Below the pieces are notes generated by a model. That model worked only from the letters and a program-made list of their open reading frames with translations. It did no database searches and was not told the origin of the DNA. The translations under genes were made by a program, and so were the position numbers. Positions 22,252 through 26,312 of a stretch of 64,000 nucleotides of DNA are shown here, piece after piece (within the stretch, counting starts at the first letter, position 1; every line of letters starts with the position of its first letter). This DNA comes from Petasospora fabianii (lineage: Eukaryota > Ascomycota > Saccharomycetes > Phaffomycetales > Wickerhamomycetaceae): positions 332,371 through 396,370 of the forward strand of contig CP048724.1 in assembly GCA_022641835.1 (NCBI GenBank), in the 5' to 3' direction.

Positions 22252-22618
22252 GGTCTTATGAAGTCAGGGAGCAAAACACTAAGAGACAGTAAGAAGTAAC
22301 TCTCTCATCTCATCAAACCATAATCACCCATCTCCCATCTCCCAGGTGCACCCATCCACTCAAGAACCACTCGAGATTATAGTTTCTCCACAAAAACCAA
22401 TCTATTACTTTATCAATCATCACCATGGTAACACCCCTTCAAATCTATTACCATGACGATTATTTGCCCGTGAATCTGTCATTTCGGACTTTCAGCGGAG
22501 ATTAAACAAATCAATGATTGTGACTCGAGTTTTCCATCTTCGCCACTTTTCTCCCTTGTGCCAAACCCGTTAATTAGCAGCGACGATAGAGAGAGAGAGA
22601 GAGAGGATCATCAGAAGT
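22252..22618. other. Divergent promoter region
   Basis: About 370 bp between two divergent genes. It contains an (AG)n tract (about 22588-22605) in the leader of the molybdopterin gene. No further gene. Confidence 0.5.
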
Positions 22619-24370
22619 ATGAAACCAACAAGTCTCCTGCGACACGCTTCTGCGGCAGCACAGAGTTCACTCACAAATACCGCCTCACGTCGTTGGGACG
22701 CTATCAGGAACGCCAAACCGTTATCGCACTTCCTTACAGACTCGTTTAACCGCACGCACGACTACCTTCGAATTAGCATCACAGAACGTTGCAACTTGAG
22801 ATGTCTCTATTGTATGCCAGAGGAAGGTGTTCCGCTTCAGCACGAGGATAAGATCTTGAAGACGGATGAGATTGTCGAGCTGGCGAAGATCTTTGTTAAG
22901 CAAGGTGTGAGAAAGATCAGACTCACTGGTGGTGAGCCTACGATTCGCAAGGATATTGTTGAGATCGTGACGAGATTGGGACAGATCCCAGGTGTGGAGG
23001 AGTTGTGTTTGACTTCTAATGGAATCGCATTGCATAGAAAGTTGCCAAAGTTGGCACAGGCAGGGTTGACTGCTGTGAATCTATCGCTTGATACTCTTGT
23101 CGAGGGAAAATTTGTGATGATCACTAGAAGAAATGGATTGCAAAATGTGATGAAGAGTTTGGAAACGGCTCTGCAGTTGGGGATCCCAAAAGTGAAGTTG
23201 AACGTTGTGGTGATAAAAGGGCTCAATGATGATGAAATTCTAAAATTTGTCAGATTGGCTCAGTATTACCCATTAGAGATCAGATTCATTGAATATATGC
23301 CATTCGATGGTAACAAATGGGAACTTGACAAAGTGATGAGCTTCAGTGCAATCATGGATATTATCAGATCCGAGTATCCTGTTGTGAACAGACAGACACA
23401 CAAGTATGGAGAAACTTCCAAAGTGTTTGATATTCCCGGATTTCAAGGCCGTATTGGGTTTATCTCATCCATGACTGATGATTTCTGTGCTGATTGCACC
23501 AGATTGAGACTCACATCAGATGGTAACTTGAAAGTTTGTCTGTTTGATAACGGTGAAGTGTCATTGAGAGACATGCTTAGATCTAATGCTAGTGAGGATG
23601 AGATTTTGAACGTTATCGGCAGGGCCGTAAAGGGTAAGAAGGAGAAACATGCAGATTTAGACGAACTTCATTTGCAAAAGAATAGACCTATGACACTCAT
23701 TGGTGGGTGAGTTTCCGAATAACAGATAATTTTTCCGACAAACTGGTTACTAACAAACATTTTTGCAGGTAATGCTGGACACTACACCACCAAAAGACCA
23801 ATTACACGTACCCTACCACCATTCATGTTGGGTGCCATGACCATTAACAACAGTGTTGGGGGTCAACACCTCCGTTTCTACTCTACCAAGCCTCAACTTA
23901 CACATATAAATGAGAAGGGTGAAGCACGCATGGTTGATATCTCCTCGAAGGAGATCACCAAGCGTCGTGCTAGTGCTGAAGGGTTCATTCGGTTTTCCAC
24001 AACTTTGGCAATCTCTCAAATCACAGAGAACACAAACAAGAAGGGCGATGTCTTAAGCATTGCTCGAATCTCTGGAATCTCAGCGATTAAAAAGACCCCA
24101 GATCTCATTATCCTATGTCATCCATTACCCTTGACCAAAGCTGAGATCTCTGTGGAGATTTTATCAGATACGGAGATGAGAGTGCTCAGTACGGCTCATT
24201 GTCAGGGAAAGACAGGCGTGGAGATGGAGGCACTTGTTGGGTGTACTACGGCGCTATTGAACATCTATGACATGTGCAAAGCCGTTGATAAACACATGGT
24301 GATTCATGGTGTGAGGGTTTTGAGTAAAGCTGGTGGAAAGAGCGACTTTGATGTTGCACAGGATAGTTGA
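22619..24370 (+). CDS. MOCS1: Molybdenum cofactor biosynthesis protein 1 (MoaA + MoaC, one alternatively spliceable intron)
   Basis: The MoaA part has a mitochondrial-type N-terminus and the radical-SAM cluster C58-x3-C62-x2-C65 (ERCNLRCLYC). The second cluster is C290-x2-C293-x13-C307. It reads to LIGG and TGA at 23708. The MoaC part (to 24370) has EARMVDISSK, LCHPLPL, GKTGVEMEAL and YDMCKAVDK. Between them is an intron with branch TACTAAC (23748-23754) and acceptor TTTTGCAG (ends 23768). Donor GTGGGT at 23703 joins the frames (22619-23702 + 23769-24370, 561 aa). Donor GTGAGT at 23707 with the same acceptor, or retention, ends at Gly-Gly. The pair turns GTP into cyclic pyranopterin monophosphate. 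Confidence 0.93.
23703..23768 (+). other. Regulatory-type intron with overlapping donors in the MOCS1 gene
   Basis: Two donors 4 nt apart, GTGGGT (23703) and GTGAGT (23707), share branch TACTAAC and acceptor TTTTGCAG. The first fuses MoaA to MoaC. The second gives Gly-Gly then stop (GGG TAA), and retention gives Gly-Gly then TGA. A weaker AAAAG acceptor ending at 23796 would also fuse the frames from the second donor while keeping the Gly-Gly. Confidence 0.7.
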
Positions 24371-25745
24371 GGGTGGGGGGATCAATTACGAGATCACTTT
24401 ATTGAGTGTTATGATTGTAGATATATACGACCCAAGGACCAGCCCCAATGGAAATCAAATATAGATTCCGATGATTTTGTTTTGCATTGACAAGCGAGGA
24501 GGTGGGCAACCGATCGTTTGTGGAATGTGGAGGTCTTGAATAACATACGAACGCGGTATTTGGTGCAAGAATGGCAATTGAAGCTGTTTACGGAGCCAGC
24601 ATGCCCCTTAGGGTGCCAACTATCCCGCGCGGGATATGGCCAACCGGGTCGGCAAGGTTCCTTGATGAGGCAGCGGACGCAGAGACGCAGGGTACGTAAA
24701 TGGATGTCTGAAAACGGAAACAACAGAAGAGTCAGATGATTACAAACAAACATTGACCCTAGTTTTAGGGTTTGACAGCCTAGACAACCCGGACAACTTT
24801 AAGCTCAAGCTCAAGCTCATGTTCTTAGTAGTGACCTTACCTTCACGCATTACGAAAACAATGACATTCTCTGTAGCGATGAGAATGTTGTTGTTTAGTA
24901 AAGACCTAAAGATCATCGGGTGTTCGGGTAATTATCCTTCCGCGCACGGAAAACCCCGAGGGGACCACTTCCCGGGACCCCATTTCCGGTTAAAAATGAG
25001 GACCGAACTTTATTATGCATATTGACGCAGGTTTCAGCAGAGATTTAAATTTAGCCTTATTGTTGCCAGCCCTCAAGTGTCATCGAGCATCTCTTGAAAC
25101 GGACTTCCGGTGCTTGGATAGCAACGGCGAGTAGTTCGTAAGGAGGCTAAAAAAAGAATCTGTCGGAGATTCCCCCATCAGGGGGAATCATTGTGCAGTT
25201 AGCTGTTGCTCAGGGCGGCATGAGGTGGGGCCATTCCATCACTCGTGGTGTGTTTGTGGTCTCCGTACATATGTTTGTATCAATTTATAGGGCTACTAGT
25301 GGTAGCCTTGATGCGGATGCGCGCGCTTCATACGCTTCTTTGATCTCGAGTTCGTACACGTGTGGAAGACGAGCTTGGATGTTCATCTCATCAATGTCTA
25401 CATATGATCACTCATGAACTGAAACCAGCCTCCTCATTACTCAACGCCTTGCAGATTTGGTTCGTAATGACGGACAAGGGGAAAAATAAACTGCCGCACC
25501 AATGCAGGACAACGAAAAGAAATGTGTAATTCTGCAGGGTGCATGCAGGCATTACGTTTGGAGCCACACTACCAGCGTGGAAAAACATTGACATCACCTC
25601 CCGAAATTTTGGGGTATAAAGAGAGCATTGAATCCCCCCATTTTGATTTCCGAAACTCCGACTGTTTTTGTCTTCTCCTTCATCATCAGCAACACCAGCT
25701 TTCCACTCGCTCAAAAACAAAGCAATCAAACAAAACTCTTATACA
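24371..25745. other. 1.38-kb region before the CWP1-like gene
   Basis: No supportable gene or RNA. It contains a perfect hairpin at 25168-25189, a short CTCAAG tandem repeat at about 24801-24818, and a TATA box TATAAA at 25615-25620 that suits the downstream cell-wall gene. Such long promoters are common for regulated cell-surface genes. Confidence 0.5.
25168..25189. repeat. Perfect 9-bp hairpin GATTCCCCC-ATCA-GGGGGAATC
   Basis: A 9-bp perfect inverted repeat with a 4-nt loop, isolated in non-coding sequence about 560 bp before the CWP1-like gene. No T run follows, so it does not look like a terminator. It could be a dimeric zinc-finger site. Confidence 0.65.
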
Positions 25746-26312
25746 ATGTTCACCAAGACTCTTGCCGCCCTTTCCTTCGCTGCTATTGCCCTCGCTGACT
25801 CCGAGACCTTTGGTTTGGTCATCATCAGATCCGGTTCCCAGTACCAGTACTCCTCCATCTCCGTGAAGGATGGTAAGCTTGCTATCGGTACTGACAACTA
25901 CGTTGAGGGTGTCATCACCGACTCTGGTCTTTTCAAGTTGTCTGACGGTTCTTACGCCGTTGTTAAGGATGATGGTATCTACACCGGTTCTGAGGGTTCA
26001 TCTCCATTCTCCATCTCTGGTGGTTACTTGGCTTACGATGGTTCCCAGGCTTTCACCATCAACAACAACGACCTTGTTGCCGGTTCTGGTAACACCCCAG
26101 TCGCTTTGAGAGCTGCTCTTTCCTCCGGTTCTGCCGCTCCTGACTTCTCTCCAAAGGGTGGTGACTCCCCAAAGAAGCCATCTTCTAACTCTTCTAACGA
26201 CACCACCACCACCACACACACTATTACCTACCAGACCGCGAACGGTGCTAACGCCTTGACTGGTGCTGGTATGGGTGCCGCTATTGCCGCCGCTGCTGCC
26301 TTCTTGATCTAA
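25746..26312 (+). CDS. CWP1: GPI-anchored cell-wall mannoprotein, Cwp1-like
   Basis: A 188-aa secreted protein (S. cerevisiae Cwp1 is 239 aa). The signal peptide MFTKTLAALSFAAIALA is followed directly by DSETFGLVIIRSGSQYQYSS, which matches the mature start of Cwp1 (DSEEFGLVSIRSGS). The middle keeps the Cwp1 pattern of GVITDSGLFKLSDGSYAVV and an APDFSP element. The Ser/Thr-rich stem is short. The C-terminus is a GPI signal with a small-residue omega region and hydrophobic tail (AAIAAAAAFLI). The Ser/Thr-rich stem of Cwp1 with its Pir-type repeat is largely missing. A TATA box is at 25615. It should be linked to cell-wall glucan. Confidence 0.85.
   Translation: MFTKTLAALSFAAIALADSETFGLVIIRSGSQYQYSSISVKDGKLAIGTDNYVEGVITDSGLFKLSDGSYAVVKDDGIYTGSEGSSPFSISGGYLAYDGSQAFTINNNDLVAGSGNTPVALRAALSSGSAAPDFSPKGGDSPKKPSSNSSNDTTTTTHTITYQTANGANALTGAGMGAAIAAAAAFLI

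Follow-up and report, generated by a model that had tools for sequence, protein, structure and literature searches.

A nit-7-like MoaA-MoaC locus with overlapping donor sites in the yeast Petasospora fabianii, probably expressed by alternative processing

Described MoaA-MoaC genes and the locus of P. fabianii

In Neurospora crassa, the non-spliced transcript of nit-7 encodes NIT-7A, which ends with Gly-Gly and a stop codon in intron 1, and the spliced transcript encodes the fusion protein NIT-7AB (PMC7232280). Growth of Neurospora on nitrate requires both NIT-7A and NIT-7AB, and the non-spliced form increases under nitrate induction (PMC7232280). NIT-7B is freed after mitochondrial import of NIT-7AB, and growth was not wild-type-like when NIT-7A was combined with a separate NIT-7B (PMC7232280). 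The same report describes a second donor 9 nt downstream, which uses the same acceptor and is not essential, and names cnxABC of Aspergillus nidulans as a homolog of nit-7 (PMC7232280). In humans, MOCS1A or MOCS1AB is produced by alternative splicing at exon 9, and MOCS1B is cut from the MOCS1AB fusion in mitochondria (PMC9607355). Among the titles and beginnings of abstracts listed by our literature search, none besides nit-7 (PMC7232280) described a fungal or yeast precedent. The original prediction for the DNA studied here held that the choice between MoaA and a MoaA-MoaC fusion is encoded at one intron of a yeast gene, and it named only metazoan precedents. The former part was supported in this study; the latter was incomplete, as nit-7 follows the same logic (PMC7232280).

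The window, that is, the whole stretch of 64,000 nucleotides analysed, contains a MoaA domain followed by a MoaC domain on one strand (+) at one locus. The MoaA (GTP 3',8-cyclase) frame extends from its ATG to a TGA inside the intron (22619-23710) and encodes 363 amino acid residues, of which the last are Q-K-N-R-P-M-T-L-I-G-G. It matched the NCBIfam profile TIGR02666 over its full length (1-336 of 336, 368.5 bits), with residue 363 as the last matched one, and the Pfam domains Radical_SAM and Mob_synth_C. The terminal Gly-Gly codons are GGT GGG (23702-23707), and the TGA that is read if the intron is kept follows at 23708-23710. The codons at the junction, ATT GGT GGG TGA, and their coordinates agreed with the earlier proposal that the unspliced MoaA frame ends with Gly-Gly and an in-frame stop. 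In all 80 bacterial MoaA relatives kept, which were the best 80 of 485 confirmed ones in the collection genome_contigs and thus biased towards close and full-length relatives, Gly-Gly and a stop were also found at the column of residue 363. By this comparison, Gly-Gly-stop is the natural end of MoaA. Residues 1-26 of the MoaA frame include four basic and no acidic residues, as might suit a mitochondrial targeting segment; a similar criterion, applied to residues 2-26, selected 8 of 90 long ORFs. A run of AG dinucleotides lies directly 5' of the MoaA start codon (22590-22605).

Similar to nit-7 as described in PMC7232280, the P. fabianii locus carries MoaA and then MoaC in one gene with one intron at the Gly-Gly codons. 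In both, retention of the intron gives a MoaA that ends with Gly-Gly at a stop inside the intron, and a close pair of donors shares an acceptor, the donors being 9 nt apart in nit-7 and 4 nt apart here. Different from nit-7, in which removal of 1460-1696 (237 nt) gives the fusion, the intron here is 62 or 66 nt long, its donors do not share a frame, and Gly-Gly-stop is the outcome of the consensus splice as well. Human MOCS1 shares the choice between MoaA alone and the fusion but differs by its ten exons and alternative exon 1, and a retained-intron form is not described for it in the relevant passages of PMC9607355. The two donors also resemble the Delta-4 tandem donors discussed in PMC2423196, which are likewise 4 nt apart and mutually out of frame. 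That source often predicts truncation or decay as their outcome, whereas at the present locus one frame would end a functional protein and the other would join MoaA to MoaC. A similar switch is already known from Neurospora and human, and the layout is different here. Judged from sequence, the locus is most likely of the nit-7 type and makes both forms by alternative processing in a new layout, to which we assign a probability of about 60%.

The intron, its donors and its possible products

Two GT donors in different frames, GTGGGT (23703-23708) and, 4 nt downstream, GTGAGT (23707-23712), precede a perfect TACTAAC branch-point sequence (23748-23754). The AG nearest to the branch point belongs to the CAG acceptor at 23766-23768, which follows TTTTTG. 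With this acceptor the intron is 62 or 66 nt long, depending on the donor. The distance from donor to TACTAAC was 41 nt for GTGAGT and 45 nt for GTGGGT, and that from the T of TACTAAC to the AG was 21 nt. In 11 introns predicted from signals alone in 264 kb (the window and 200 kb of contig C3) of the 12.3 Mb genome, a set of predictions in which the present intron is included, the corresponding distances were 35-49 nt and 16-23 nt. By its sequence signals, the intron is real beyond chance.

Translation reproduced all of the products that had been predicted from these sites. GTGAGT with the acceptor ending at 23768 gave LIGG followed immediately by TAA (GGG TAA, with the TAA at 23770-23772), and GTGGGT with the same acceptor removed the stop and gave the MoaA-MoaC fusion LIGNAGH. 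GTGAGT with a second acceptor, an AAG at 23794-23796 that we judged weak, gave a fusion that keeps Gly-Gly, LIGGPITRT. A total of 25 GT/GC-AG pairs were translated (donors within 23640-23744, acceptors up to 23904 and introns of at least 31 nt), of which seven gave in-frame fusions, four of them with a GC donor. The three GT-AG fusions were 23703/23768 (LIGNAGH), 23707/23796 (LIGGPITRT) and 23707/23853 (LIGGVGGQH). The last option was absent from the original prediction, and its acceptor is distant from the branch point. Splicing from GTGAGT to this CAG (23851-23853) gives LIGGVGGQHLRFYS and skips the MoaC-frame ATGs at 23825 and 23837. Read by eye, the consensus-spliced mRNA continues as GGG TAATG, and a short frame begins at the ATG of 23772. 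This frame stops at a TGA that overlaps the MoaC-frame ATG at 23837, a possible reinitiation chain.

The 4-nt offset of the donors also means that a +1 shift at GGG_TAA on the GTGAGT-spliced mRNA would enter the MoaC frame, by which LIGG-NAGH would be joined to MoaC. Folding of the unspliced strand at 23680-23800 was ordinary (z -0.75), which speaks against such frameshifting, and we regard it as highly improbable. Local RNA structure as the switch was set aside: pairing between the donor region and exon 2 is possible, yet 40 of 200 shuffled sequences folded equally well.

Counts over the whole genome separated the two donors. At 35-65 nt before an exact TACTAAC, GTGAGT occurred 96 times vs 23 in a control with the backwards pattern, an enrichment, and GTGGGT occurred 13 times vs 19, with no enrichment. 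These counts do not support the proposal that the 4-nt donor pair acts as the switch. Given that GTGAGT is enriched and GTGGGT is not, the default products of the locus, spliced or unspliced, are both likely to end with Gly-Gly-stop. Since the consensus splice also yields Gly-Gly-stop, a fusion would depend on an unusual site. Three of the 13 GTGGGT matches, including the one at the present locus, had a strong donor (GTAAGT, GTATGT or GTGAGT) 4 nt downstream, against a background of 4 of 101 GTGGGT in 264 kb, and the downstream strong donor may be the real site at those three.

Pairing with U1 was less discriminating. A U1 gene with the 5' end ATACTTACCTT was found at C1:2184441-2184576, where it scored 55.1 bits, below the Rfam gathering score of 69.5. 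The calculated pairing of this 5' end was -10.1 kcal/mol with GTGAGT and -9.2 kcal/mol with GTGGGT (-9.7 for a test string). Pairing was weaker than for GTGGGT in test strings that contained GTATGT (-6.3) or GTACGT (-6.2), both of which are found before TACTAAC in the genome. Thus, GTGGGT cannot be called weak by U1 pairing alone, and it is the genome-wide counts that speak against it. The gap in U1 pairing is small, so GTGGGT may be used at a low level.

The overlap of the two donors exceeds chance only partly, and the 4-nt overlap is partly automatic. As the donor consensus (GTRAGT) has GT at positions 5/6, a second GT 4 nt downstream of a donor is common; in human constitutive exons it is found in about 47% (PMC2423196). 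A GT 4 nt upstream of a real donor is depleted in the same exons, with ~4% observed vs ~10% expected (PMC2423196), and if GTGAGT is the real donor here, the site falls into this rarer class. The upstream GT derives from the Gly codon GGT, which makes up 1812 of the 2928 Gly codons of 90 long ORFs, and GGG TGA follows automatically when GG precedes GTGAGT in the present phase. What is not automatic is the TAA directly after the consensus splice and the 4-nt shift that enters the MoaC frame.

The same features bear on a pure retention switch as in Neurospora. GTGGGT would then be the sole relevant donor and give the fusion, retention would give MoaA with Gly-Gly, and the GTGAGT/TAA arrangement would be a by-product of encoding GGT GGG TGA. 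An intron that starts at this place and encodes Gly-Gly-stop would have to open with GT GGN TGA, a constraint that could account for the unusual donor; nit-7 itself relies on retention (PMC7232280), and GTGGGT pairs fairly well with U1. However, GTGAGT, which overlaps GTGGGT, is the donor with the enriched context and the slightly stronger U1 pairing, and by our arithmetic the chance of GT after GTGA is ~1/16 and that of an immediate stop at this junction ~3/64. We consider the retention switch unlikely, although less so than the other alternatives to the preferred reading.

The MoaC domain, its linker and the remainder of the pathway

The MoaC (cPMP synthase) domain extends to the stop codon (23897-24370) and matched all of TIGR00581 (1-148 of 148, 183.5 bits) and the Pfam domain MoaC (167.8 bits). 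In the fusion, it would be preceded by a linker of ~42 amino acid residues (23769-23896), which has no stop in the MoaC frame downstream of the acceptor. The 44 codons of 23771-23902 had a codon score of 11.43 bits; 2.7% of open non-coding, 0.5% of open off-frame and 66% of in-frame coding windows scored at least as high. This stretch includes 26 codons from the first MoaC-frame ATG on, which would be coding whether or not a fusion is made. The 18 codons before that ATG scored 3.08 bits, which was reached by 8.9% of open non-coding, 8.9% of open off-frame and 75% of in-frame coding windows. The in-frame windows were taken from the ORFs that trained the codon scores, so that both in-frame rates are somewhat flattering. 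The eight codons exclusive to the GTGGGT fusion were neutral (0.17 bits), and the following ten scored 2.91 bits. Thus, translation of the linker is mildly favoured, but neither fusion route, through GTGGGT or through the AAG acceptor, is favoured over the other.

The linker contains Arg-Phe-Tyr-Ser (RFYS, 23873-23884), a candidate motif match that we take to resemble a mitochondrial processing site. The chance expectation per 40 amino acid residues is 0.05 for R.[FYL][SA] and 0.023 for R.[FY][SA], and the looser form also matches twice inside MoaC (RVLS). On the unspliced RNA, 660 nt lie between the TGA and the MoaC stop, and RNAs with the Gly-Gly-stop could therefore be targets of decay.

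The locus might instead make no fusion at all. MoaC would then start at its own ATG (23825 or 23837), either by reinitiation on a bicistronic mRNA or from its own promoter. This would agree with the strongest splice, which leaves GGG TAATG at the junction, and with MLGAM...RFYSTKP as a possible mitochondrial presequence in its own right. For A. nidulans cnxABC, a bicistronic mode of expression was at one time considered (PMC7232280), and reinitiation on bicistrons is inducible in yeast (PMC11952965). However, a scanning ribosome would have to pass 27 ATGs, with the MoaA start counted, before the first MoaC-frame ATG and would hardly arrive there; leaky scanning to MoaC was set aside for this reason. 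Moreover, the part of the linker 5' of that ATG has no stop in the MoaC frame and looks mildly coding there, and a separate NIT-7B was insufficient in Neurospora as described above (PMC7232280). Separate expression of MoaC thus appears quite unlikely. The opposite case, in which one constitutive junction gives only the fusion, the fusion or a processed form of it provides both activities and Gly-Gly-stop is splicing noise, is less probable still. The fusion alone encodes both domains, but it does not arise from the best-supported donor and the nearest acceptor, and the natural MoaA end is Gly-Gly-stop.

Searches of the genome (12.3 Mb, 16 contigs) identified one match each to Mob_synth_C and MoaC, both at the present locus. 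Among the four Radical_SAM matches of the genome, only the one at this locus adjoins Mob_synth_C, and no further MoaA or MoaC gene turned up in the profile search of the 16 contigs. Both products therefore probably come from here, provided that the assembly lacks no such gene. The sole Oxidored_molyb match belongs to a nitrate reductase (C5:9161-12691) with the domain order Oxidored_molyb, Mo-co_dimer, Cyt-b5, FAD- and NAD-binding, of which the NAD-binding match, at the edge of the locus, scored 21.8 bits against a cut-off of 22. This gene, ~10 kb away from one end of its contig (0.99 Mb), is possibly subtelomeric. MoaE, a ThiS/MoaD-like protein and MoCF_biosynth domains (three matches in two frames) were also found in the genome. 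Downstream of MoaC in the window, a small Ser/Thr-rich ORF (25746-26312) has, by eye, a signal-like start and a hydrophobic end similar to those of GPI-anchored wall proteins; scanned as 25743-26309, it had no Pfam match at E 0.01.

Proposed processing and its significance

In the preferred reading, alternative processing of one transcript would supply both forms. If the intron is kept, or spliced from GTGAGT to 23768, MoaA with a free C-terminal Gly-Gly would be made. If GTGGGT is the donor, or if GTGAGT is combined with the AAG acceptor ending at 23796, the stop would be removed and MoaA would be joined to MoaC via the linker. MoaA with Gly-Gly would probably predominate and act as the GTP cyclase, and the fusion would be a minor product whose MoaA part is presumably inactive. 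By analogy with what is reported for NIT-7AB, the fusion may bring MoaC into mitochondria, where MoaC would be cut free in the linker. Should a fusion be made, GTGGGT is its probable route; the AAG acceptor is a distinctly weaker candidate, and other routes would be surprising. More tentatively, the default splice may have been captured for MoaA, and the sole MoaC may be made only through an unusual splice, at the donor shifted by 4 nt or at the AAG acceptor, so that competition between sites would set the ratio of MoaA to MoaC. This would be the reverse of the arrangement in Neurospora; we find it possible but somewhat doubtful.

According to a comparative-genomics study, most yeasts have lost the use of molybdenum (PMC6147048), and reports of alternative splicing in hemiascomycetous yeasts are few (PMC2911113). 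Use of more than one junction at the P. fabianii locus would extend the nit-7 switch to a compact genome and to an intron of 62-66 nt. The locus would then provide a single-site system for how the choice between donors 4 nt apart sets the ratio of two consecutive enzymes, and growth of this yeast on nitrate would be tied to a splice choice.
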